A stretch of 64,000 nt of DNA, from assembly GCF_947492715.1 (NCBI RefSeq), contig NZ_CANLNS010000009.1, forward strand, positions 62,001-126,000, given 5' to 3'. A program made the position numbers and the translations under genes. This DNA comes from an uncultured Psychroserpens sp. Lineage in GTDB: Bacteria > Bacteroidota > Bacteroidia > Flavobacteriales > Flavobacteriaceae. This document shows positions 25,567 to 63,073 of this stretch, in pieces. Every line of letters begins with the position of its first letter. Within the stretch, counting starts at the first letter, position 1. The notes beneath the pieces are model-generated. The model did no database searches. It saw only the letters and a program-made list of their open reading frames with translations, and had not been told where the DNA came from.

Positions 25567-27408
25567 ATGCTAAAACAATTTTATGTCATTCTTATCTTGT
25601 TATTGGTTGGTTGCGGCAAAGAAAACACACAGGAACAACTTAAAGCTGATATTACTAAAATAAACAGGCTGCATAAGCTATCGGCCGAAGAAACTAGCGA
25701 TTCTACACTTTTATACTTAAAAGAAGCAGAACAGATTATTAGTAATACTACTGAAATTCCAGACACAATTCATATTGAGAACAGCTTTTTAAAAGGGTAT
25801 TATTATAAACGCATAAATACTATAGATTCGGCATCTTATTATTTTCACAGAACTATTGATTTGATTAAAGGTCCAAACACAAGAGACAGGAATTTAGTAT
25901 ACTTTAGGGTGGCATGGGAAACAGATGAAAATAGTAATAAAATGGCCAATGCTGTAAGCATAGCACATAAATTTATAGAAATTTCAGATGAAGATAAGCA
26001 TGCAAAAGGCTTGACATATGCCTATAATTTTCTAGAGCGTATTAATTTTGATCTTGGCAATCACGAAAAATCATTGTTTTATAATGCCAAAACATTGGAA
26101 GCTGCTAAAAAATCTTCCGACACGTCAATGTTTGTTATAACTCTAAATTCTAGGGCAGAAAAACTGTATGGATTAGGCAAGAAAGAAGAGGCTTATAAAC
26201 TTCAAGACAGTGCAGATCAATTTAAAAACGTTCCTAAAGATGTTAGGAGACAAGTATATCGAAATTACGGCGTACTGTATTTTTATGATAAAGACTACAA
26301 AAAGGCTATAGAAAAATATTTACCTGCCTTAGCACTTTCAAAAGAAATAGAAGGGAATAAAAATTATAACTTAATAGAGTCCTACAATAATATTTCTGAG
26401 GCATATATTAAACTTGGAGAATTTAATTTAGCTAAGGCTTATTTAGATTCTACGCAGCACATAATTCGCCCCGATTCATTTCAGGAGTATGTGAATTTCT
26501 ATAAGGAATTAAGATTTTTGTTGAATTTTAAAACGAGTAAGAATATAGAAGAGATTAGTCTTGAGTATAATAAATTGGTCGATGATTATGAAAGACAACA
26601 TGAAGAAAAAATAAATGAAGAACTTGTAGCGTTAAAATTAGCTAATGAAAAAGAACAGGAAGCATTAACGCAAAAGAAAGAGGCAGAGATTACTAACGTT
26701 AAACTAATGTCTTTGTTAGGGTTTTCTGTACTAGTATTAATTATAGGATACTTGTATTATAGACAGCGACGATTTAAATTTGAAAAACAAGATATGCAAA
26801 TGCAACAGCGTTTGTTACGATCTCAAATGAGCCCTCATTTTATGTTTAATACCTTGTCTGCAATTCAAAATCAAATTAGAGATAATCAAAAAGATGCAAC
26901 GGATTATCTAATTAAGTTTTCGAGGTTATTGAGGTTAATATTAGAAAATTCAATAAATAACTATGTCGAAGTAGATAGTGAATTAGAGTCACTTCGGAAA
27001 TATATAGATTTACAACTGTTACGATTTCCTAACCAGTTTGAATACACAATTACGCTAGAGAATTTTGAGGAAGATGAAGGGGTTTGTATTCCTCCTATGT
27101 TGCTTCAACCTTTTGTTGAAAATAGTATAGAGCATGGCTTTTTAGGAATTGATTACAAAGGGCAAATAGATATTACATTGGCATTACAAGACAAATACAT
27201 AGCTTGTACAATAGAGGATAACGGAATTGGGTTAAAAACATTAAACAAGGATTATCAAAAATCTGTTTCGACACAATTAATTTCAAAATTCGTTTATAAA
27301 GTAACAAAACAAAGCGTAATTACTTTAGATAAAAAAACAAAGGATTTATCCAATTCAGGGGTTATAGTTAAATTTTTAATTCCATATAAATTTTCAGAAC
27401 ATGATTAA
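25567..27408 (+). CDS. LytS-like sensor histidine kinase with lipoprotein-like N-terminus and TPR region
   Basis: 613 residues. The start MLKQFYVILILLLVGCGKEN has the form of a lipoprotein signal (Cys about 16). Residues about 60-330 are helical repeats of tetratricopeptide type (for example YKKAIEKYLPALALSKEIEG), followed by a coiled coil (about 335-375). A single membrane helix lies at about 380-397, and the cytoplasmic kinase begins with the LytS-type phosphoacceptor SQMSPHFMFNTLSAIQNQI (His about 424). The ATP-binding domain shows PPMLLQPFVENSIEHGF (N box) and IEDNGIGL (G1). The sensor region would thus be periplasmic. The gene overlaps the LytTR regulator by 8 bp, so the two form a two-component system. 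Confidence 0.92.
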   Translation: MLKQFYVILILLLVGCGKENTQEQLKADITKINRLHKLSAEETSDSTLLYLKEAEQIISNTTEIPDTIHIENSFLKGYYYKRINTIDSASYYFHRTIDLIKGPNTRDRNLVYFRVAWETDENSNKMANAVSIAHKFIEISDEDKHAKGLTYAYNFLERINFDLGNHEKSLFYNAKTLEAAKKSSDTSMFVITLNSRAEKLYGLGKKEEAYKLQDSADQFKNVPKDVRRQVYRNYGVLYFYDKDYKKAIEKYLPALALSKEIEGNKNYNLIESYNNISEAYIKLGEFNLAKAYLDSTQHIIRPDSFQEYVNFYKELRFLLNFKTSKNIEEISLEYNKLVDDYERQHEEKINEELVALKLANEKEQEALTQKKEAEITNVKLMSLLGFSVLVLIIGYLYYRQRRFKFEKQDMQMQQRLLRSQMSPHFMFNTLSAIQNQIRDNQKDATDYLIKFSRLLRLILENSINNYVEVDSELESLRKYIDLQLLRFPNQFEYTITLENFEEDEGVCIPPMLLQPFVENSIEHGFLGIDYKGQIDITLALQDKYIACTIEDNGIGLKTLNKDYQKSVSTQLISKFVYKVTKQSVITLDKKTKDLSNSGVIVKFLIPYKFSEHD

Positions 27409-28138
27409 AGCAATATTAGTAGATGATGAGGCTTATATTAGACAAAATGTTAGTAGCAAACTAGAGGCATACTTTAATAATGACATAGAAGTTGTAGGCG
27501 AGGCCGAAAGCGTAAAAGAAGCTGTGGCGTTAATTAAAGAAAAAAAACCTAATCTGCTTTTTTTGGATGTTCAGTTAAAAGACGGAACCAGTTTCGATAT
27601 TCTTAACAAAATTGAAGATAAAAATTTTGATATCATATTTATAACTGGCTTTGATAATCATGCTATAAAAGCCATAAAGGTTGGTGCCCTAGACTATATT
27701 TTGAAACCTATAGATGATGAAGAATTTAAAGCAGCCGTACTTAAGGCGATTCAAAATGTTAAGGAAGAAAATGATATCGATAAATTAGTTGAAATATCTA
27801 GTGAATATTTTCTTGGCGTTAAGAAAAAAAGAATCATTTTAAAAACGATGGAAAACGTTTATGCGGTCTATGAAGACGATATTTTATACTGCAAATCTGA
27901 AGGAAATTATACAACATTTTACACCAAACAATCTGAACGAATATTAGTATCTAAGTCGATAAAAAAGGTAGTAGAATTATTATCTGAAGACGTTTTTATT
28001 AGATGTCATCAATCGTATTTGGTTAATAAAAAACATGTTGTTAGGTACAATAAACAAGGTGTGTTGGTCATCATAAATGAAGTTAAAGTACCTGTTTCAA
28101 GCAGAAGAAAAGACTATGTTATAGAGAAGATATTTTGA
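27401..28138 (+). CDS. LytTR-family response regulator
   Basis: 245 residues. A receiver domain (about 1-122) has the acidic pair DDE at residues 8-10, the phosphoacceptor Asp in NLLFLDVQLKDG (about 56), and Lys in YILKPIDDEEF. A LytTR DNA-binding domain (about 140-245) follows: ILYCKSEGNYTTFYT, FIRCHQSYLVNKKHVV and VPVSSRRKDYV are its standard strands. LytTR proteins bind two direct repeats spaced about 21 bp, centre to centre. Such repeats begin 3 bp after this gene's stop (28142) and recur at 29094, which suggests the regulon includes the next two transcription units. It is translationally coupled to the kinase. Confidence 0.95.
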   Translation: MIKAILVDDEAYIRQNVSSKLEAYFNNDIEVVGEAESVKEAVALIKEKKPNLLFLDVQLKDGTSFDILNKIEDKNFDIIFITGFDNHAIKAIKVGALDYILKPIDDEEFKAAVLKAIQNVKEENDIDKLVEISSEYFLGVKKKRIILKTMENVYAVYEDDILYCKSEGNYTTFYTKQSERILVSKSIKKVVELLSEDVFIRCHQSYLVNKKHVVRYNKQGVLVIINEVKVPVSSRRKDYVIEKIF

Positions 28139-28141
28139 TTT

Positions 28142-28196
28142 ACGAATTTGAAATTTAAACCAACGCATTTGAATTTATGACGCACGAATATGAAAC
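28142..28196 (+). promoter_or_regulatory. Three 21-bp-phased direct repeats, predicted LytTR binding sites
   Basis: ACGAATTTGAAAT (28142), ACGCATTTGAATT (28163) and ACGAATATGAAAC (28184) start exactly 21 bp apart. They lie between the LytTR regulator and the lipoprotein gene. A TAAATTGG, one base off the -7 consensus, sits at 28223-28230, 27 bp after the last repeat. Spacing and position fit a LytTR activator site; binding is inferred. Confidence 0.75.
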
Positions 28197-28250
28197 CCCC
28201 AATTTTAAAAACGATTATTCATTAAATTGGGTAAAAAAATCAGTTGTCTT

Positions 28251-29024
28251 ATGAAAAATTTCCATAAACTAGCTTTTGTATTGCTAGTAATAATCAATGC
28301 TCAGTCTTGTGAAAAAGAAAATGTAAGTGACGAAACGAACGGTCAAAACATACAAGAGACAGAAATGTATGCTAGAGGCAAAGCACAATCTCAGGCTCAA
28401 ATTAGCGCTGCCGAAGCACTAGAAAACAATATGCAATGGGTTGCCTTTATGACTGCTCAAATATTAATTAAGGAAGTCGATGGTGCAAATCAATTTGTGA
28501 ATCTATATAATTCAGGTATGCTTAACAATGACCACGCAATTGTTAAGTTATCAGATTTATTAAACATTCAGCAAACAAACCAATCGTTTCGGGATGCCTT
28601 TGAACATGAGTTCAATATTTTTAATGGTTATGCGCATAATCCATGTGAGAATCAAGGAAAACCAAAATTGCGGCCAACGCCTCCGCCTTGCGATCCAATG
28701 CCATGCGCTTTGCCAAATCAAACATTTGATGCTTACGTAGATTATCTAATAGAGGAGCATTGCTTAGAGATATATGTAACGGCAGGTCTCGACTTATCTC
28801 AAAATATTTTGTCTTCTGCTCATCCAATGAATACGACGCATATGAATATAGGATTTGAGCATTTTGATTCTAATGAATGTAATGTCAATCAAATTTCAAT
28901 ACATGGTAGTGCGATAGGTAATATTTATGACAATTTAATTGTTGTAAGACCTTATAGAGCGGCAGATGAATGTGATTATGATGAATTTTCTGAAATTGTA
29001 GACTTTACACTGTTTCCTATATAA
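28251..29024 (+). CDS. Predicted secreted lipoprotein of unknown function
   Basis: 257 residues from the ATG at 28251; an in-frame TTG at 28227 overlaps the proposed -7 box and was rejected. The signal MKNFHKLAFVLLVIINAQSC ends in a lipobox with Cys at about 20. A Gln/Ala-rich helical region follows (QSQAQISAAEALENNMQW), then a Pro/Cys-rich linker (about 145-160, RPTPPPCDPMPC) and a C-terminal domain with further Cys and His (HPMNTTHMNIGFEHF). I recognise no family. The predicted LytTR sites in front and the terminator behind make it a single-gene unit of the same regulon. A role in sensing, immunity or adhesion cannot be chosen from the sequence. Confidence 0.75.
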   Translation: MKNFHKLAFVLLVIINAQSCEKENVSDETNGQNIQETEMYARGKAQSQAQISAAEALENNMQWVAFMTAQILIKEVDGANQFVNLYNSGMLNNDHAIVKLSDLLNIQQTNQSFRDAFEHEFNIFNGYAHNPCENQGKPKLRPTPPPCDPMPCALPNQTFDAYVDYLIEEHCLEIYVTAGLDLSQNILSSAHPMNTTHMNIGFEHFDSNECNVNQISIHGSAIGNIYDNLIVVRPYRAADECDYDEFSEIVDFTLFPI

Positions 29025-29045
29025 TTTTAAAATACCTCTTGATAC

Positions 29046-29072
29046 AAACCTCTTAATTTAAGAGGTTTTTTT
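29046..29072 (+). terminator. Terminator after the lipoprotein gene
   Basis: The 9-bp stem AAACCTCTT/AAGAGGTTT has an AATTT loop and continues into a T-run ending at 29072. Confidence 0.88.
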
Positions 29073-29093
29073 AGTTCATATTGGCGTTGTATT

Positions 29094-29127
29094 ACGAATA
29101 TGAAATAATTACTAGCGCTTTTGAATT
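29094..29127 (+). promoter_or_regulatory. Two 21-bp-phased direct repeats, predicted LytTR binding sites
   Basis: ACGAATATGAAAT (29094) and GCGCTTTTGAATT (29115) start 21 bp apart and match the repeats at 28142-28196. They lie between the terminator at 29072 and the VKOR-fusion gene at 29195. No good -7 box follows; a T-run ending in TTTG at 29153 is the nearest candidate. Confidence 0.68.
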
Positions 29128-29194
29128 AGCTATAGTAAACTAATTTTTTTTTGATGAATTTCAGCATAACAAATGAAAAACCGCTCGTATTGTT

Positions 29195-30823
29195 ATGCAA
29201 AATCACTTATATGAAATTCTGAAAAAACTCCTTGTAAACAATAATATTAAAATCAATAATGAGGAGCTAAAACTGCAATTGTCAAGTCATCCGTCTTATC
29301 CGAGTTTACATGCACTCACAGGCGTTTTAGATCATTTTAATATACCAAATTTAGCATTACAGCTAGCTGTCAACAATGACATATTCGAACAACTGCCAAT
29401 AAGTTTTATTGCTAATGTTTCTATAGACAAAGGAGATCACCTAGCTTTAATCGAGAAGAAGAAAAATAGGATTAAAATTTTAACTGACACCAATAAAAAT
29501 AGATTCGTTACAAAAGAAGAATTTTTGGAGCAATGGAATGGAATAATAGTAGCTATCGAGAAAGATGAAACTGTAAAGGAAGCTATTAACAATCCAATAA
29601 CAAAAGTCACTAAACAGATATTGATAGTTTTAGGAATTCTTTTCACAGGATATTTAATGTATTCATACAATATCCTTTTTGCTCAAGTGCATTTTCTTTT
29701 AAGTGGTCTTGGTCTTATGGTAAGTGTATTTGTGTTAAAACACGAGTTAGGCACGCAATCAAGTACAGCAAACAGTTTTTGCAACTTATCTCAAAAAACA
29801 AGTTGTGACGCCGTATTAAATTCGAAAGGAGCTACTATTTTGGGTGCAATCAAATTAAATGACATTAGCATCGTGGTGTTTTCGTGTTATAGTTTATGTT
29901 GGTTTTTACTATTTGTTAGTAAAAACCCTAATTTCTCAATAATGTCAATAGTTACGCTATTGGCATTTCCTTTTGTATTATACTCGATATACTATCAATA
30001 TAACGTTGTTAAGAAATGGTGCCCGTTGTGTCTTGTAATTGCATCTGTATTCATGTTTCAAATAGGGGCGTTATTTTTTACCAAAGCCTATGTAGAGTTA
30101 ATAGCATTTGACGTCCAGAGTACATTGTTGTTTTTTATAGCATTAATTACAGTAATTGGCTTTTGGAGCTTTTTCAAACCTTTATTAAAGAAAAAGACAT
30201 CTTTAGAGAAAACAGAAATCGAGCATCATAAATTCAAGCGTAATTTTTCTTTATTTAATGTACTTCTTAATGAAGGAGATACTTTGGGAAATTTTACGCC
30301 AATAGAAGGAGAGCTGTCCTTTGGAAACCCAAAGGCCTCAATACATTTAGTATTAGTTACAAGCCCATTATGTTATTACTGTAAAAAAGCTCATAACGAT
30401 ATTGAACAGTTAATACATAAAGTTGGAAATAAAATAAATCTAACAATACGGTTTAATTCAGATGTCACTAATCAAAACAGTCAACTATATAAGATTGCGT
30501 CAAGACTCCTTGAAGTGTATAATTCAGAAGGAGAAACAGAAACTTTAAAGGTTTTGGCAGACGTCTATAGTGATGATGTTAACCTTGAAAATTGGTTATG
30601 GAATCAACCTCAAAACGTGTCGACAGATTATGATTCTATTTTAGAAAAACAAAGTAATTGGTGTGAAGCTAATGCTGTCAATTTTACTCCTGCTTTATAT
30701 ATAAATAACAAGCTATTCCCTTATGAGTACGACAGATTAGACCTTGTCTATTTTATAGATGATTTAATACAATTTCAAAACGCATCTTCAATACTATCAA
30801 ATACTAAGGCAATAGCGTCTTAA
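29195..30823 (+). CDS. C39-like domain/VKOR/DsbA-like thioredoxin fusion (disulfide-forming enzyme)
   Basis: 542 residues in three parts. Residues 1-125 look like a C39 peptidase fold (SHPSYPSLHAL, GDHLALI with His 82, TDTNKNR with Asp 98), but there is no Cys before residue 196, so no peptidase nucleophile. A VKOR domain with about six helices follows (140-330): loop pair C196/C204 in FCNLSQKTSCDAVLNS and active-site WCPLC (276, 279). A thioredoxin-like domain (about 365-530) has CYYC (393-396) and the cis-Pro motif FTPALY. VKOR plus DsbA-like makes a self-contained oxidant of secreted thiols. The gene precedes three cysteine-rich peptide genes, so these are the likely clients; that link, and the C39-like part as a leader-binding module, are inferences. 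Confidence 0.88.
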   Translation: MQNHLYEILKKLLVNNNIKINNEELKLQLSSHPSYPSLHALTGVLDHFNIPNLALQLAVNNDIFEQLPISFIANVSIDKGDHLALIEKKKNRIKILTDTNKNRFVTKEEFLEQWNGIIVAIEKDETVKEAINNPITKVTKQILIVLGILFTGYLMYSYNILFAQVHFLLSGLGLMVSVFVLKHELGTQSSTANSFCNLSQKTSCDAVLNSKGATILGAIKLNDISIVVFSCYSLCWFLLFVSKNPNFSIMSIVTLLAFPFVLYSIYYQYNVVKKWCPLCLVIASVFMFQIGALFFTKAYVELIAFDVQSTLLFFIALITVIGFWSFFKPLLKKKTSLEKTEIEHHKFKRNFSLFNVLLNEGDTLGNFTPIEGELSFGNPKASIHLVLVTSPLCYYCKKAHNDIEQLIHKVGNKINLTIRFNSDVTNQNSQLYKIASRLLEVYNSEGETETLKVLADVYSDDVNLENWLWNQPQNVSTDYDSILEKQSNWCEANAVNFTPALYINNKLFPYEYDRLDLVYFIDDLIQFQNASSILSNTKAIAS

Positions 30824-30844
30824 AAATATTCTCTCGCGAAGAAT

Positions 30845-30865
30845 AGACTCAAGCAGTGAGTGTCT
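30845..30865 (+). promoter_or_regulatory. 21-nt inverted repeat upstream of peptide gene 1
   Basis: AGACTCAAGCAG...GTGTCT, ending 40 nt before the peptide 1 ATG. The arms AGAC/GTCT match the same element before peptides 2 and 3, and the flanking TTTAAATGTTTaC is also shared. Function is unknown: operator, promoter element or RNA hairpin. Confidence 0.6.
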
Positions 30866-30905
30866 TTAAATGTTTACTGTAATTATAATCTTTAAAATTT
30901 TAATT

Positions 30906-31100
30906 ATGAAAAAATTATTAAATCTTGAAGGAGCTCATCAATTAGATAAAAATGAGCAATTGCAAATTAAGGGTGGTTACGATTACATTCCTTGTTCAGG
31001 AACGACTTGTAGCGGCTGTCCAACAGAACGGTTCTGTAATGGAAACCATTGTGTGCCATGTAAGTATGACACCAAGAACAGACCTTGTTGTAATCCTTAA
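30906..31100 (+). CDS. Double-glycine leader peptide 1, predicted mature part with 8 cysteines
   Basis: 64 residues. The start at 30906 is set by alignment with peptides 2 and 3 (all begin MK(K/N)LL); an upstream in-frame ATG at 30870 would add a hydrophobic, unshared extension and is rejected. The leader (1-24) contains NLEGAHQLDKNEQLQIKGG, the LxxxE...IxGG pattern recognised by C39 peptidases. Cleavage after GG24 would release 40 residues holding eight Cys, including CPTERFCNGNHCVPC and a final CC pair. The core resembles no named bacteriocin I know. Many Cys and no lanthionine or radical-SAM enzyme nearby point to disulfides. It lies 82 bp after the VKOR-fusion gene. Confidence 0.85.
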   Translation: MKKLLNLEGAHQLDKNEQLQIKGGYDYIPCSGTTCSGCPTERFCNGNHCVPCKYDTKNRPCCNP

Positions 31101-31111
31101 TTAGAGCAAGC

Positions 31112-31152
31112 CATTATCCTCAAATAGAATTAATTTTTATTTGGGGATAATG
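31112..31152 (+). other. Long stem-loop between peptide genes 1 and 2
   Basis: CATTATCCTCAAAT (31112-31125) pairs with ATTTGGGGATAATG (31139-31152), 14 bp with one G-T. There is no T-run after it, so it is more likely an mRNA-stabilising, processing or weak terminator structure than a strong terminator. Confidence 0.6.
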
Positions 31153-31168
31153 TGTTAACTCATGAAGT

Positions 31169-31189
31169 AGACATAATCAGTGAGTGTCT
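31169..31189 (+). promoter_or_regulatory. 21-nt inverted repeat upstream of peptide gene 2
   Basis: AGACATAATCAG...TGTCT, ending 35 nt before the peptide 2 ATG, followed by the shared TTTAAATGTTT. It is the closest relative of the element at 30845. Confidence 0.6.
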
Positions 31190-31224
31190 TTAAATGTTTC
31201 ACTATAATTCTTAAATATTTAATT

Positions 31225-31395
31225 ATGAAAAATTTATTAAACATAGATGGTGCTCAAAAATTGAGCAAAACAGAACAAGAATCAATAAACGGTGGAGGAT
31301 TTGATATTATTTACCAAAGATGTGGTCCATTTGGAGAATGTCCAGGAGACTACTTTTGCAAAAATGGACTTTGTGTAGATTATCATATCTTATAA
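31225..31395 (+). CDS. Double-glycine leader peptide 2, predicted mature part with 4 cysteines
   Basis: 56 residues. The leader (1-24) reads MKNLLNIDGAQKL...INGG with the conserved E-x-I-x-GG end. The predicted 32-residue mature part has Cys in QRC, GECP, YFC and GLCV. The central CPGDYFCKNGLCV matches peptide 1's CPTERFCNGNHCV, so the two share a disulfide motif of the CP-x3-FC-x4-CV type. A GTG at 31180 in the same frame would add an unconserved N-terminal extension and is rejected. A strong terminator follows. Confidence 0.85.
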   Translation: MKNLLNIDGAQKLSKTEQESINGGGFDIIYQRCGPFGECPGDYFCKNGLCVDYHIL

Positions 31396-31406
31396 GATTC
31401 ATCATT

Positions 31407-31443
31407 GGTCAGGATTATTGTTAAGTAATCCTGGCCTTTTTTT
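31407..31443 (+). terminator. Terminator after peptide gene 2
   Basis: The 11-bp stem GGTCAGGATTA/TAATCCTGGCC, with one wobble pair and an 8-nt loop, is followed by seven T residues. Confidence 0.9.
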
Positions 31444-31498
31444 AGTCTTTATTATTCGCTTTTAATTGAATTATAAATCTAGTACCAATAGAATAAAT

Positions 31499-33682
31499 TT
31501 GAAAAAGTTCCCAACATATAGACAAACAGAAGCTAAAGATTGTGGTCCAACATGTATTAAAATAATTGCTAAACATTATGGTAAAACAATCAATACACAA
31601 CAATTAAGACAGCTAAGTGAAACTACCAGAGAAGGAAGTAGTTTGTTAGGCTTAAGTGAAGCTGCCGAATCTATTGGTTTTCGTTCATTGGGAGTTAAAT
31701 TGTCATTTAATAAATTAAAGGAAGCACCACTACCTTGTATTGTGCATTGGAATAAAAAACATTATGTTGTTATATATCGAGTAAAAAAAGACAAAATTCA
31801 TATCTCCGATCCGGCTCAAGGCTTACTAACCTACACAAAAAAAGAGTTTATTAAATTTTGGATTGGTAACAATGCCAACGATATAACAGAAGAAGGCATA
31901 GCCTTAATGCTTGATCCAACACCTCAGTTTTATAAATCTGAATTTGATGATGATGAAAAATTTGGCTTTAACTTCATTTTTAAGTACCTCTTTCGGTACA
32001 AAAAGTTCATTATTCAATTAATTATTGGGCTATTGGCTGGGAGCTTATTACAATTAATTCTTCCGTTTTTAACCCAAAGTATTGTAGATATAGGCATTAA
32101 TAATCGAGATTTAAATTTCATTTATCTCATACTTTTTGCCCAAATAGCACTCTTTATTGGTAAAGCTAGTTTAGAAATTATAAGAAGTTGGATTCTACTT
32201 CATCTAAGTACACGTATTAATATTTCATTGATTTCAGACTTTTTTATCAAGCTTATGAAGTTACCTATTTCATATTTTGATGTACGAATGACTGGAGATT
32301 TGCTACAAAGAATAAATGATCACAAACGTATTGAACGTATACTTACCACCTCCTCTTTAACCATGCTTTTTTCATTTTTTAATCTCATAATATTTGGTCT
32401 TGTTTTAGGCTATTACAGCCTTCAAATATTTGCTGTATTTATTATCGGAAGTGTGTTTTACTTCGGATGGGTTTTGTTCTTTTTTAAAAAGAGAGCGGTT
32501 TTAGATTATAAGAGATTTTCAGAAATAAGTGATGAGCAAAGTAAAGTGATTGAGTTAATTGGCGGAATGCAAGAAATTAAATTGCATAACGCCGAAAGAC
32601 GTATGCGATGGAATTGGGAATATGTCCAAGCCCGTTTATTTAAAATCGCTTCAAAGAGTTTAGCCCTAGAACAAACACAGAGTGTGGGCTCAAACTTTAT
32701 CAATGAAATTAAAAACATGTCTATTACTGTACTGTCTGCAAAACTAGTTATCGATGGAGATATTACCTTAGGTATGATGTTAGCAATTAGTTATATCGTA
32801 GGTCAGTTAAATGGGCCTATTGCTCAACTCATTGATTTCATGAGAGATATTCAGGATGCAAAAATATCTATTGATCGATTAGGAGAAATACACAATATGG
32901 AAGAAGAGGAAAACGATGAAGAAAAGATAAATTCAATTCCTGTAAATGCAACTATAACATTACATGAAATTTCATTTAGATACACAGGAGCCTTAGAACC
33001 TGTACTAAAAAATTTATCGCTTACAATACCTGCTAATAAAACAACAGCTATTGTTGGGGTAAGTGGTTCTGGAAAAACAACACTTATGAAAATGTTGTTG
33101 CGTTTTTACCAACCAGATCAAGGAGAAATCAACGTTGATAAATTTAACTTAAATACAGTATCTCAACAAACTTGGAGAGCGCATTGTGGCGTAGTAATGC
33201 AAGAAGGCTATGTGTTTAATGATACGATTGCTAATAACATTGCTGTAGGGCAAGATCATATTGATAAAGACAAGTTAGCACACGCTATTGATGTTGCTAA
33301 CATCTCAGATTATATAGACAGCTTGCCTTTAGGTTACAATACTAAAATTGGAGCAGAAGGATCTGGTCTTAGCACAGGACAAAAACAACGGTTGTTTATT
33401 GCTCGGGCGGTTTATAAAGACCCAAAGTTCTTGTTTTTTGATGAAGCCACTTCGGCCTTAGACGCTAATAATGAAAAAGTAATCATGAAAAAATTAGACA
33501 CATTTTTTAAAGATAAAACGGCTGTGGTTATTGCGCATAGATTGAGTACTGTGAAAAATGCACATCAAATTGTCGTACTGAATAATGGTAACATTTCAGA
33601 AATAGGAACCCATAAAGAATTAATCGCCTTAAAAGGAGGGTATTACAATTTGGTGAAAAACCAATTAGAACTAGGGCAGTAA
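31499..33682 (+). CDS. C39 peptidase-ABC exporter for double-glycine peptides
   Basis: 727 residues from a TTG at 31499, which gives MKKFPTYRQTEAKDCGPTC; another TTG lies at 31466 and no ATG precedes the catalytic Cys. The C39 domain (about 1-130) is complete: DCGPTC nucleophile, HWNKKHYVVIY His and ISDPAQG Asp. Six membrane helices (about 165-440) and the ATPase (about 485-727) follow, with Walker A GVSGSGKTT, signature LSTGQKQR, Walker B LFFDEATSALD and H-loop VIAHRLST. It should cut leaders after GG and export the mature peptides across the inner membrane. The catalytic C39 contrasts with the Cys-less one at 29195. Two leader-peptide genes lie before it and one after. Confidence 0.93.
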   Translation: MKKFPTYRQTEAKDCGPTCIKIIAKHYGKTINTQQLRQLSETTREGSSLLGLSEAAESIGFRSLGVKLSFNKLKEAPLPCIVHWNKKHYVVIYRVKKDKIHISDPAQGLLTYTKKEFIKFWIGNNANDITEEGIALMLDPTPQFYKSEFDDDEKFGFNFIFKYLFRYKKFIIQLIIGLLAGSLLQLILPFLTQSIVDIGINNRDLNFIYLILFAQIALFIGKASLEIIRSWILLHLSTRINISLISDFFIKLMKLPISYFDVRMTGDLLQRINDHKRIERILTTSSLTMLFSFFNLIIFGLVLGYYSLQIFAVFIIGSVFYFGWVLFFFKKRAVLDYKRFSEISDEQSKVIELIGGMQEIKLHNAERRMRWNWEYVQARLFKIASKSLALEQTQSVGSNFINEIKNMSITVLSAKLVIDGDITLGMMLAISYIVGQLNGPIAQLIDFMRDIQDAKISIDRLGEIHNMEEEENDEEKINSIPVNATITLHEISFRYTGALEPVLKNLSLTIPANKTTAIVGVSGSGKTTLMKMLLRFYQPDQGEINVDKFNLNTVSQQTWRAHCGVVMQEGYVFNDTIANNIAVGQDHIDKDKLAHAIDVANISDYIDSLPLGYNTKIGAEGSGLSTGQKQRLFIARAVYKDPKFLFFDEATSALDANNEKVIMKKLDTFFKDKTAVVIAHRLSTVKNAHQIVVLNNGNISEIGTHKELIALKGGYYNLVKNQLELGQ

Positions 33683-33701
33683 AGATATTTTAGCGAGAGA
33701 T

Positions 33702-33722
33702 AGACATAAACTGTAAATGTCT
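33702..33722 (+). promoter_or_regulatory. 21-nt inverted repeat upstream of peptide gene 3
   Basis: AGACATAAACTGTAAATGTCT: the arms AGACAT/ATGTCT are perfect. It ends 40 nt before the peptide 3 ATG, the same distance as for peptide 1. Confidence 0.6.
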
Positions 33723-33762
33723 TAAAATGGTTACAGACAATTAATATTAAAATTTTTTAATT

Positions 33763-33927
33763 ATGAAAAATCTTTTAAAACTGGGAACAGTTATAACAAA
33801 AATAGAGCAAATGCAAATTCATGGAGGCGGGTTAGGTTTCTGCTGTGAATGGTGCTCTGACGGATCATGTAATGGATGGGTTGGAGACCCAAGAACACCA
33901 TGCCCATTTGCTGCATCATGTAGCTAA
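33763..33927 (+). CDS. Double-glycine leader peptide 3, predicted mature part with 6 cysteines
   Basis: 54 residues, short enough to be missed by usual gene calling. The leader MKNLLKLGTVITKIEQMQ ends IHGG (22 residues), keeping the E-x3-I-x-GG spacing. The predicted 32-residue mature part begins GLGFCCEWCSDGSCNG and has six Cys, including a CC pair, with two Trp. Its start region (TTAATTATGAAAAA) and the upstream 21-nt element match those of peptides 1 and 2. The core is not visibly similar to theirs. It lies between the exporter and adaptor genes and is followed by a hairpin with four T residues. Confidence 0.82.
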   Translation: MKNLLKLGTVITKIEQMQIHGGGLGFCCEWCSDGSCNGWVGDPRTPCPFAASCS

Positions 33928-33938
33928 ATTATAACAAA

Positions 33939-33972
33939 CATAAGGGCATTTGCATTAATGCTCTTATGTTTT
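33939..33972 (+). terminator. Terminator-like hairpin after peptide gene 3
   Basis: The 11-bp stem CATAAGGGCAT/ATGCTCTTATG (one G-T) has an 8-nt loop and a TTTT tail. It is probably leaky, as the HlyD gene starts 13 bp later without an obvious promoter. Confidence 0.7.
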
Positions 33973-33985
33973 AAATCATATACGT

Positions 33986-35272
33986 ATGCCAGACAATAAT
34001 ATAGAACTTCGCAGCGAACAAGTTCAAGACATTCTAGATGCCATACCTAATTGGATGATTCTTTGGGGAAACACATTAATCATGTTACTTATAATTATGC
34101 TTTTGTGTATATCTTGGTTCGTGAAATACCCTGATATCATAAATGCAAATGCAGTAGTTACCACAGAAATCCCATCTCAAAAAATATATGGAAAGGTAAC
34201 AGGAAAACTAAATGCATTATTGGTTTCTGATAATCAAGAGGTTGGAAAATCTCAACCTTTAGCTATTATAGAAAACTCGGCAAATTATCAAGACGTATTC
34301 ATGCTTAAAGAAGTTTTAGATACAATAACTATCAATAAAAAAACGGTCAACTTTCCTATTGATAGCATGCCAATATTGTTTTTAGGTGACATTGATACCC
34401 AATATGCACTATTTGAAAATAGTTATATTCAATATAAACTGAATAAGGAGTTACAGCCGTTTTCAAATGAAGCACTTGCCAATCAATATTCGATTTCAGA
34501 ATTAAACCAAAGATTTCAAAGTTTAAATGCTCAAAAACGCATTAATAAAAAGGAACTTGAATTTAAAAATAAAGAGTTACAACGTCATAAGTCGTTGTTT
34601 GATAAAGGTGTTATTTCTGCACAAAGCTATGAAAGTAAGCAGCTTGAGTATGCGCAAACAGAACGAAACTATAAAAATTTTGAAACTTCAATTTCTCAAA
34701 TAAAAGAGAGAATTAGTAATGCTCACAAAACATCTAAAGGTTCCAAAATTAATCAGATTAAGGAAGAAATGGGACTGCTAAAAAACGTCATTCAATCATT
34801 TAATCAGTTAAAAAATGCAATTAAAGCCTGGGAGCAAATGTATGTACTTCAATCTGCCATTAATGGACAAGTATCATTTTTAAATTATTATAATACAAAC
34901 CAAACAGTGAATCAAGGTGATTTGGTGTTTACAATTATCCCCAATGAAAGTTCAACATTCATAGCTAAATTAAAAACACCTGCTCAAAATTCGGGTAAGA
35001 TAAAAATAGATCAAACAGTAAACGTCAAAGTGGATAACTTTCCAAAATCGGAGTTTGGAGTTTTAAATGGTAAGGTCATGTACATTTCGGCAATTCCTGA
35101 TAAAGATGGATTGTATCTAGTCAATGTAAAATTGCCTAAAGAACTTGTAACATCTTACAATAAAAAAATAGAATTTAAACAAGAGATGTTGGGTTCTGCT
35201 GAAATTATAACAGAAGACCTGCGTTTAATTGAACGGTTCTTTTATCAACTAAGAGAAGTTTTAGGTAGTTAG
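33986..35272 (+). CDS. HlyD-family adaptor of the peptide exporter
   Basis: 428 residues. A cytoplasmic N-terminus (1-28), one membrane helix (about 30-50, GNTLIMLLIIMLLCISWFV) and a periplasmic adaptor follow: first lipoyl half VTTEIPSQKIYGKVTGKLNA, a long coiled coil (about 175-270, with LFDKGVISAQSYESKQLEYA) and the second lipoyl/beta-barrel part (MYVLQSAINGQVSFLN, VFTIIPNESS). It should link the C39-ABC exporter to an outer membrane channel; no TolC gene is adjacent, so a housekeeping one may be shared (a TolC gene lies at 61631). It ends the accessory island. Confidence 0.9.
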   Translation: MPDNNIELRSEQVQDILDAIPNWMILWGNTLIMLLIIMLLCISWFVKYPDIINANAVVTTEIPSQKIYGKVTGKLNALLVSDNQEVGKSQPLAIIENSANYQDVFMLKEVLDTITINKKTVNFPIDSMPILFLGDIDTQYALFENSYIQYKLNKELQPFSNEALANQYSISELNQRFQSLNAQKRINKKELEFKNKELQRHKSLFDKGVISAQSYESKQLEYAQTERNYKNFETSISQIKERISNAHKTSKGSKINQIKEEMGLLKNVIQSFNQLKNAIKAWEQMYVLQSAINGQVSFLNYYNTNQTVNQGDLVFTIIPNESSTFIAKLKTPAQNSGKIKIDQTVNVKVDNFPKSEFGVLNGKVMYISAIPDKDGLYLVNVKLPKELVTSYNKKIEFKQEMLGSAEIITEDLRLIERFFYQLREVLGS

Positions 35273-61630: not shown

Positions 61631-63073
61631 ATGAAAAAAATAGTCAGCATATTTATTGTTTTAATAACAATTAGCCTTCAGGCTCAAACGAAAAAATGGA
61701 CCTTAATTGAATGCGTTGAACATGCGTTGGTAAATAATATTTCGGTTAAACAAAGTGAATTAGATTTAGAATCTGCAGACATTGAAATGCTCACAGCGAA
61801 AGGAAACTTTTTACCAAGTATAAATGCTGGAGCTGGCGTATCAGAAAATACAGGACTTAGTTTTAACCCTGTAACAAACAATGCCCAAACAACTACATTT
61901 TTATCAGCAAATGGAAGTATTAATTTAGGATATACCATATTTGATGGCCTTAGAAATATAAGAGCCGTACAGCGTGCCGAAATATCAAAATTGGCTAGTC
62001 AATATCGCTTAGATAAAATGAAGGATGATATTTCCCTTTTTGTAGCCAATGGTTATCTTCAAGTTATATTAAATAAGGCTAATTTGGAAGTTCTGAAATC
62101 TCAAAACGAAGTCACAAATGAGCAAATCGAAAGAACAGAACAACTCGTAGAAGCTGGTTCATTACCTCGTGGTGATTTATTAGAGATCCAAGCTACAGAT
62201 GCTAGCGAAAAACAGTCTATTATTAATGCTGAAAACAGTGTTAAAATATCACTTATAAGTTTAGCACAACTATTATTAGTAAAAGACTACGAGAACTTCG
62301 ATATTGAAGATGGAGGATATGATATTATAGATGCAGGCATCTCAAATAAAGATGTGTCTGAAATTTTAGCACAAGCCAAAGAAACACGATCAGAAATAAA
62401 AATAGCTGAGCAAAATGTTGCCTTAGCTGAAAAGGATTTGCAGATCGCTAAAGGCGCTAACCTGCCAACTGTTTCTGCGTTTTTTGGTTATAATACACGT
62501 TATGCTAATACGACTTCTTTTACGCAAATTGTAGATCCTGATAACCCGACTACCACGCAACAAATTGGTGTCGTACAGGCTACAGGTCAATCTGTAGTAT
62601 CGGAGTTTCCGAATACAATAGTTCAGGAAGTATCGGCAGATCCGTTCGTAGACCAACTTTATCAAAATGATGGTATTGGCTATGGTCTCAATTTAAATAT
62701 TCCAATTTTCAATGGATTTGCTACAAAGGCTAATGTGAAAAGAAATAAAATTAATTTAGAACGTACTAAATTTCAATTAGAACAAGCCGAATTAGATTTA
62801 GAATCTACAGTATATCAAGCCTATGTTGATGCTAAGGGATCTTTAAAATCTTATGAGGCTGCACAATCGGCATTAGAGTCGCAACAATTGGCGTATGACT
62901 ATGCTAAAGAACGTTATGACGTAGGATTAACCAATGCATTTGATTTTAGTCAGTCTAAACTAAGATATGATAATGCAAGAATTGAATTGAATCGTGCAAA
63001 ATATGATTATATATTTAAGTTAAAGGTTCTCGAATTATATTTCGGAATTCCTGCAACAGAATTAAAGTTTTAA
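61631..63073 (+). CDS. TolC-family outer membrane efflux protein
   Basis: 480 residues with a signal peptide (1-19, ITISLQAQ). Two OEP repeats of long helices and strands: first LIECVEHALVNNISVKQSEL to about 240, second from about 245 with ARSEI-like helices, ending in KYDYIFKLKVLELYFG. It supplies the outer membrane channel for the pump and could also serve the peptide exporter, which lacks its own. Confidence 0.93.
   Translation: MKKIVSIFIVLITISLQAQTKKWTLIECVEHALVNNISVKQSELDLESADIEMLTAKGNFLPSINAGAGVSENTGLSFNPVTNNAQTTTFLSANGSINLGYTIFDGLRNIRAVQRAEISKLASQYRLDKMKDDISLFVANGYLQVILNKANLEVLKSQNEVTNEQIERTEQLVEAGSLPRGDLLEIQATDASEKQSIINAENSVKISLISLAQLLLVKDYENFDIEDGGYDIIDAGISNKDVSEILAQAKETRSEIKIAEQNVALAEKDLQIAKGANLPTVSAFFGYNTRYANTTSFTQIVDPDNPTTTQQIGVVQATGQSVVSEFPNTIVQEVSADPFVDQLYQNDGIGYGLNLNIPIFNGFATKANVKRNKINLERTKFQLEQAELDLESTVYQAYVDAKGSLKSYEAAQSALESQQLAYDYAKERYDVGLTNAFDFSQSKLRYDNARIELNRAKYDYIFKLKVLELYFGIPATELKF

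Follow-up and report, generated by a model that had tools for sequence, protein, structure and literature searches.

The window considered here is a stretch of 64,000 nucleotides from an uncultured Psychroserpens sp. (positions 62,001 to 126,000 of contig NZ_CANLNS010000009.1, assembly GCF_947492715.1). It is part of a 4.2 Mb genome, in which it lies on the contig here called C9. At about 25567-35272 it carries a run of genes for a sensor kinase, a LytTR regulator, a lipoprotein, a protein in which C39-like, VKOR and DsbA-like domains are fused, two peptides with double-glycine (GG) leaders, a C39 peptidase-containing ABC exporter (PCAT), a third GG-leader peptide and an HlyD-type protein (Table 1). 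An initial annotation had placed a LytTR-controlled factory for disulfide-rich peptides at 28139-35272, a run of about 6 kb. The fusion, the three GG peptides with 8, 4 and 6 cysteines in their predicted mature parts, the C39-ABC exporter and the HlyD adaptor are all where it put them, according to Pfam matches and translations; the extent did not hold, since the run is longer, with the kinase and LytTR genes upstream and the lipoprotein gene within it. The cluster is probably a leader-guided system for forming disulfides in small peptides and exporting them, in which oxidation would take place in the cytoplasm, before export, by the fusion protein in inverted orientation.

Table 1. Features of the gene cluster, with positions in the window
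Feature	Position	Strand	Basis
TPR sensor histidine kinase	25567..27408	+	Pfam His_kinase 69.7 bits, TPR_12 44.8 bits
LytTR response regulator	27401..28138	+	Pfam Response_reg 71.4, LytTR 66.3 bits
Three tandem LytTR-type boxes, spacing 21 bp (28141, 28162, 28183)	28141..28196	+	Matrix pair scores 34.3, 32.0
Small lipoprotein, putative immunity or sensor role	28251..29024	+	Lipoprotein-like N-terminus judged by eye; homologues in other loci
Terminator-like hairpin and T-run	29049..29072	+	Stem CCTCTTAA/TTAAGAGG; between lipoprotein and fusion transcripts
Two tandem LytTR-type boxes (29093, 29114), before fusion gene	29093..29127	+	Pair score 32.8
C39-like/VKOR/DsbA-like fusion, predicted inverted leader-guided thiol oxidase	29195..30823	+	Pfam, six redox Cys, AlphaFold2, fold matches, charges
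GG-leader peptide 1, core with 8 Cys	30906..31100	+	Translation; leader model 26.9 bits (32.9 bits in genome search)
GG-leader peptide 2, core with 4 Cys	31225..31395	+	Translation; leader model 34.6 bits (37.3 bits in genome search)
PCAT, start codon uncertain	31466..33682	+	Pfam Peptidase_C39 129.3, ABC_tran 107.5, ABC_membrane 105.4 bits
GG-leader peptide 3, core with 6 Cys	33763..33927	+	Translation; leader model 33.5 bits (38.6 bits in genome search)
HlyD-type membrane fusion protein	33986..35272	+	Pfam HlyD_3 55.1 bits (cut-off 22.2); TIGR01843 113.8 bits, under cut-off 208.65

The Fusion Protein

Three Pfam domains are recognized in the fusion: Peptidase_C39 at residues 11-125 (32.7 bits, cut-off 22), VKOR at 167-289 (54.3 bits, cut-off 27.5) and Thioredoxin_4 at 372-515 (32.2 bits, cut-off 23.2). 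Six redox cysteines (196, 204, 276, 279, 393 and 396) are kept in all 82 full-length members of the family. Among them the loop pair, C196 and C204, and the CxxC of the fourth transmembrane helix (TM4), C276 and C279, make up the arrangement typical of VKOR proteins. The commonest motif in the DsbA-like domain is CGHC (45/82), the window protein has CYYC, and a threonine precedes the predicted cis-proline in 82/82.

An AlphaFold2 model built from the 82 sequences (mean pLDDT 87.5, pTM 0.62) divides into a C39-like N-terminal domain, a membrane-type part with six helix regions and a DsbA-like domain. Both the model and hydropathy place an extra helix, TM0, at residues 134-157, before the VKOR core. 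In fold comparisons residues 1-123 matched residues 18-141 of PCAT1 (8vp5; Z 14.4, root-mean-square deviation 2.9, 121 aligned), and the N-terminal domain also matched a leader-bound double-glycine protease (6mpz; Z 13.9). Residues 160-301 matched residues 17-154 of the Synechococcus VKOR (4nv2; Z 13.3, root-mean-square deviation 2.8, 134 aligned), with helix 134-157 outside the alignment, and residues 362-528 matched ScsC (5id4; Z 17.4). Comparison of sequence profiles between the N-terminal domain and the C39 domain of PCATs gave a moderate match (probability 69, E 4.4e-5), the fold comparison being the clearer of the two; a sequence search of solved structures with the VKOR part alone returned chance matches only.

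The C39-like domain has no cysteine in the window protein, as had been stated, nor in 54 of the 82 family members. Residue 1 of the model aligns with residue 18 of PCAT1, so that the fusion begins about three residues ahead of the position of the catalytic residue, which in PCAT1 is Cys21. Over the 82 sequences the first 12 columns of the alignment hold a single cysteine, in L084, and the C39 histidine (column 82) occurs in eight, the window protein among them. The reading of an active C39 peptidase in the fusion is rejected on this account. Because the catalytic cysteine has been lost and the histidine is not kept in the family, the domain should bind rather than cut. The dead domain has a near-invariant stretch, SHPSYPSLHA, at residues 31-40 (29285-29314), and within its SHPSYPS portion and the following residue Pro33, Pro36, Ser37 and Leu38 are invariant. 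The idea that SHPSYPS is the former catalytic site was dropped, since profile and fold comparisons place the lost cysteine at the extreme N-terminus; the longer stretch is possibly the leader-binding site.

Distribution of the Module

Genome contigs were scanned with two peptide patterns, the TM4 CxxC being part of one of them. Relatives of the fusion were encoded in 143 stretches, of which the best 80 (L006-L085), the nearer relatives, were kept. Peptides with the same type of GG leader accompany the fusion in 77 of these 80 other loci and at all three copies in the genome under study, the last being the training set of the leader model. A PCAT gene follows the fusion in 47 of the 66 loci that have at least 8 kb downstream, and in L045 and L081 it overlaps the end of the fusion gene. 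With the recurrence of fusion and GG peptides in 77/80 loci and of fusion and PCAT in 47/66, the module is not a chance association. The neighborhood, for which the initial annotation had proposed a survey of Bacteroidetes genomes, recurs across Bacteroidota.

Genomes were searched for 17 of the 19 loci without an adjacent PCAT. In 16 of them a full-length PCAT, 57-81% identical to that of the window, is present elsewhere; none was found elsewhere in the genome of L083. Loci of this kind could use an exporter in trans. In the genomes of L012 and L013 a distance of about 9 kb separates the PCAT from a LanC gene, so that these two PCATs may belong to lanthipeptide loci.

A further 18 divergent loci were read directly. 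Small open reading frames (ORFs) of GG type with at least 4 cysteines are present in 16 of them; L127 has a weak candidate peptide with 3 cysteines and L126 none. A PCAT is present in 15/18 and HlyD in 13/18. Among 392 sampled Bacteroidota genomes, 60 have a match to the fusion: 43 are strong (E ≤1e-26, the present genome included), and the 17 weak ones are confined to the VKOR or the thioredoxin part. In several Bacteroidota genomes (G245, G134, G241, G300 and G321) copies of the fusion are fragmented or interrupted by stop codons, which suggests that some clusters are decaying.

The genome itself has three fusion copies, that of the window and two on contig C6. Each of the latter is accompanied by a lipoprotein, a TPR-CHAT protein, a PCAT, GG peptides (2 and 4) and HlyD; the CHAT domains score 176 and 175 bits. 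The paralogous clusters (L004:2286-7297 and L005:157-4245) have no kinase-LytTR pair nearby. They carry a divergent sigma-factor-like gene (Sigma70_r2 23.4 bits, cut-off 24) and a TPR gene, and their TPR-CHAT (caspase-like) protein is 920 amino acids long.

Leaders and Cysteine-Rich Cores

The leader model was trained on the nine leaders of the genome, with the cores left out. It found 424 peptides in 83 fusion loci (the 80 others and the three training copies), up to 22 in one locus. All except one are on the strand of the fusion, 412 downstream and 11 upstream. The leaders in the window are 22-24 amino acids long, end in GG and, counted from the inner ATG, contain no cysteine. Even numbers of cysteines (at least 2) are found in 364 of 413 distinct cores and odd numbers (at least 3) in 47; of the remaining two cores, one is free of cysteine and the other has a single one. 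When the cores are grouped into 183 sequence clusters, 167 of these are even, 15 odd and one single-cysteine. The odd families, from L011, L012, L013 and related loci, include a 17-member cluster with 7 cysteines and a 10-member cluster with 5; such cores may form dimers or retain a free thiol.

Within a locus the leaders are 68% identical and the cores 25% (381 pairs), compared with 23% for shuffled cores. One leader with many unlike cores is the arrangement that an enzyme reading the leader would require. Among 37 related genomes the fusion is present in 8, the present one included, and the leader model has matches in 4 of these 8; there are 15 matches, every one within 5 kb of a fusion. The 29 related genomes without a fusion gave no match, but neither did the four relatives whose fusions are divergent; the model is to that extent insensitive, and its silence in the 29 is weak evidence. 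The leader type is already partly annotated: the NCBIfam model "leader_Chryseo, bacteriocin-like protein" matches 16 of 39 sampled leaders (E ≤0.1).

No match to DsbB was found in the genome, and the three fusions account for all its matches to VKOR and Thioredoxin_4, further DsbA-type families not having been searched. The lack of DsbB and the confinement of the other two families to the fusions support the view that the fusion is an enzyme dedicated to the peptides. There is good support for the proposal that the peptides are what the oxidase serves, given the association of the two in almost every locus examined, the mostly even numbers of cysteines and this restriction of VKOR and Thioredoxin_4 matches to fusions.

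Membrane Orientation of the VKOR Core

The orientation of the VKOR core was assessed by counting lysine and arginine in the loops on the side of the active site and on the other side, with 25 ordinary VKORs from Bacteroidota for comparison (29 loci less 4 of the C39 type). When all loops were counted, the active-site side had more of these residues in 76 of 76 analyzed fusions, whereas the other side had more in 23 of the 25 ordinary VKORs, with two ties. Exclusion of loop 3-4, which holds an invariant lysine, left 76/76 fusions inverted and 25/25 ordinary VKORs in the usual orientation. With three further measures of charge 74, 70 and 73 of the 76 fusions were inverted, 2, 2 and 3 were opposed and any others tied; of the ordinary VKORs 23/25 were usual and 2 opposed. 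The divergent fusion ORFs had the inverted pattern in 16 of the 16 analyzed, of 19.

On the simplest reading of these charges, the cytoplasm is predicted to hold the N-terminal domain, the DsbA-like domain and the redox site. It is on account of the inverted charge pattern around the VKOR core that cytoplasmic oxidation is favored over periplasmic. The initial annotation had the peptides oxidized by a VKOR/DsbA-type enzyme as secreted thiols; the chemistry is retained here, and the place is more likely the cytoplasm, ahead of export. The inverted orientation would also put the leader-binding type of domain where the uncut leader is. We put at somewhat better than even the probability that disulfides are made in the cytoplasm by a naturally inverted VKOR-DsbA enzyme of bacteria, in which a dead peptidase domain recognizes the leader. 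The VKOR of Aeropyrum pernix, reportedly inverted according to work by Hibender in 2017, would be a natural precedent.

Alternative Explanations

A VKOR core in the usual orientation would place the C39-like and DsbA-like domains in the periplasm, and oxidation would follow cutting and export by the PCAT. This is nearest to the picture in the initial annotation, and it agrees with the matched VKOR and DsbA relatives, which act outside the cytoplasm, the titles of some structures saying periplasmic. We nevertheless regard it as unlikely, if the most serious of the competitors, since the charge pattern is the opposite in 76/76 analyzed fusions, a folded N-terminal domain of about 125 residues, beginning at residue 2 of the model, would have to be translocated with no signal peptide evident by eye, and the leader would not reach the compartment that holds the leader-binding fold. 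A cytoplasmic location is compatible with redox chemistry in either direction, and the fusion might instead be a reductase or isomerase that keeps cysteines reduced or rearranges bonds, for example to maintain the precursors in an exportable form. The Thr-Pro at the predicted cis-proline in 82/82 sequences would suit this function, being a feature of DsbC and DsbG. However, electrons from VKOR go to quinone, which is the oxidizing direction, and the commonest motif, CGHC (45/82), is oxidase-like; a reducing or isomerizing role is very unlikely.

The products themselves could be of another kind. Small cysteine-rich cores with even numbers of cysteines would also fit peptides that bind metal ions and are protected or loaded by the fusion, but an oxidase would remove the metal-binding thiols and the cores, in 183 clusters, have diverse spacings, so that this idea is hardly credible. 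That the peptides are lanthipeptides, or signals, instead of disulfide-bonded bacteriocins is improbable, although less so than the two preceding proposals. A leader model for class I lanthipeptides has weak matches (E ≤0.1) to 9 of 39 leaders, and the kinase beside the peptide genes suggests signaling. A LanC homologue (L014:5271-6473) lies 3.5 kb upstream of the fusion in one locus, the sole case in 80, and this too weighs against disulfide-bonded products. With the LanC proteins of the genome as queries, however, no homologue was found in the window, in L004 and L005 or in the other 79 loci; the two LanC genes of the genome are on contig C1, whereas the clusters are on C6 and C9; 12 of 20 genomes with a fusion had no LanC match; and up to 22 peptides per locus suit weapons better than a single signal. 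The nine proteins scanned in the window include none named as a lanthionine or radical-SAM enzyme, as the initial annotation had said, and the lanthipeptide reading was not favored for a cluster without a modification enzyme (LanB, LanC and LanM being absent among the nine). On contig C1 (G000:C1:783031-789760) the two LanC genes flank a further C39-ABC exporter, about 49% identical to that of the window, and this is likely a separate lanthipeptide locus.

Leader-guided formation of disulfides in the cytoplasm, the reading preferred here, has several points to answer. By the further measures of charge, 2-3 of the 76 fusions and 2 of the 25 ordinary VKORs go against the pattern, 6 of the 82 fusions and 3 of the 19 divergent ORFs could not be analyzed by the script, and both sets contain related sequences, so that the counts are not independent and a Fisher test on them exaggerates the contrast. 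The positive-inside rule is itself statistical. Conservation of C276 and C279 was partly selected by the search pattern containing CxxC. Three of the 80 loci (L016, L040 and L045) have no peptide recognized by the leader model, the contig ending soon after the fusion in L016 and L040; 47 cores have an odd number of cysteines; and the insensitivity of the leader model belongs here as well. The cytoplasm is a reducing compartment, in which the oxidase would have to keep ahead of thioredoxin. Formation of disulfides, cutting and activity are predicted, and binding of the leader is suggested by the fold. The peptides are probably bacteriocins, a designation that comes from analogy and from the diversity of the cores.

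Regulation and the Lipoprotein

A matrix for LytTR-type boxes was made from 25 sites in five other loci. The boxes that it finds in the window are tandem direct repeats with a spacing of 21 bp, about two helical turns. The box pairs in the window score 34.3, 32.8 and 32.0; the best pair outside the two box groups scores 13.9, and the highest pair in 30 Markov-shuffled windows 20.3. All 8 of the further loci that have a kinase-regulator pair also have boxes of this type, with best-pair scores of 22.1-31.5. The matched fusion of L084 is in a cluster of the CHAT type, and the boxes there adjoin a set of kinase, regulator and lipoprotein genes several kb downstream of it; in L019 and L022 the two highest-scoring pairs both lie ahead of the lipoprotein gene. 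The best pair in 11 CHAT-type loci tested did not exceed 17.3. Control by LytTR, claimed in the heading of the initial annotation, gains support from these conserved tandem boxes, to which the regulator would be expected to bind. The region 29025-29090, with the hairpin, folds at -12.3 kcal/mol (z -2.17). Since the terminator-like hairpin precedes the second set of boxes, transcription appears to be in two co-regulated units, one for the lipoprotein gene and one for the fusion operon. The kinase-regulator pair is present in 11 and a CHAT gene in 16 of the 71 loci with at least 5 kb upstream; the other 44 have neither, and control by LytTR is therefore one of several arrangements.

Homologues of the lipoprotein are found between regulator and fusion in other loci, and it may serve in immunity. 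It has additional cysteines after the presumed lipid-attachment cysteine, and among its homologues conservation of these is only partial.

Relation to Known Systems

The closest published system among those compared is that of the bacteroidetocins (class IIf), in which the genes for a GG peptide and its PCAT are clustered with those for a thiol oxidoreductase and for a protein with five transmembrane helices (PMC6671954). Deletion of the oxidoreductase or of the membrane protein attenuated activity; bacteroidetocins A and B have four cysteines, and gel migration was altered on reduction (PMC6671954). Common to both are GG-leader cysteine peptides of Bacteroidota, a C39-ABC exporter and a thiol oxidoreductase encoded in the cluster. 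In the bacteroidetocins the oxidoreductase and the five-helix protein are separate genes, whereas the window has a single fused C39-like/VKOR/DsbA-like gene; their leaders are 15-16 amino acids long as against 22-24, both ending in GG; and the four-gene set that sufficed for activity in E. coli is without HlyD, which the window has (PMC6671954). The word VKOR is absent from the main text of that paper. The two follow one logic, but because they differ in gene set and in the length of the leader the window cluster is not filed as a bacteroidetocin system.

In staphylococci the TMcin cluster has its own DsbA-like enzyme, TmcD, needed for the disulfide; its peptide is membrane-embedded and an S2P-type protease is involved (PMC13252029). 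The main text of that paper does not contain the word VKOR. Inverted VKOR and DsbB made by engineering are named as tools for cytoplasmic disulfides (PMC5471842). These and the natural example of A. pernix share the orientation proposed here; the others are archaeal or engineered, whereas the present case is a bacterial fusion with a leader-binding type of domain in a peptide cluster.

Class II microcins of the microcin V type are exported from Gram-negative cells, and their disulfides come from the general Dsb pathway of the host. They share with the window cluster the export of GG-leader peptides by a C39-ABC exporter with an HlyD-type adaptor. They differ in relying on the host for oxidation, whereas the window cluster encodes a dedicated fused oxidase.

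Among the openly licensed papers in PubMed Central (PMC) that were searched none has both whole words C39 and VKOR, and no description of the fusion with GG peptides was found there. The terms C39 and Bacteroidetes do not occur in a phylogeny of VKOR (PMC4555120), and neither VKOR nor disulfide is in the main text of a study of Bacteroidales that mined for ribosomally synthesized and post-translationally modified peptides (RiPPs; PMC10352776). The initial annotation knew of no described system of exactly this make-up. This appears to hold for the fused, inverted enzyme with its leader-binding type of domain, which looks new; the general idea of giving a GG peptide and its PCAT an oxidoreductase of their own has been published for the bacteroidetocins (PMC6671954).

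Proposed Pathway and Implications

In the pathway envisaged, the LytTR pair would switch on two transcripts, one for the lipoprotein and one for the fusion, peptides, PCAT and HlyD. The precursors share one leader and carry very variable, cysteine-rich cores. The catalytically dead C39-like domain, to judge from its fold, its lost cysteine and the shared leader, would bind the leader in the cytoplasm. The extra first helix is predicted from the charges to turn the VKOR core round, with the active site and the DsbA-like domain facing the cytoplasm. The DsbA-like domain would then oxidize, and may shuffle, the cysteines of the core, and electrons would pass from it to the VKOR core and on to quinone, as the six conserved cysteines and knowledge of the families suggest. 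From what is known of its family, the PCAT would cut after GG and export the oxidized peptide with HlyD and a TolC-type pore.

If this is true, disulfide bonding would follow the logic of RiPPs, in which leader-guided modification is succeeded by export, and the fusion would be a bacterial case of a naturally inverted VKOR. It would offer a genetically encoded route to many disulfide-rich peptides inside a bacterial cell by means of one leader. For the Bacteroidota, the findings point to a large set of cysteine-rich peptides, for which searches of openly licensed PMC papers yielded no description, and which would amount to a peptide arsenal of hundreds of diverse cores across the phylum.

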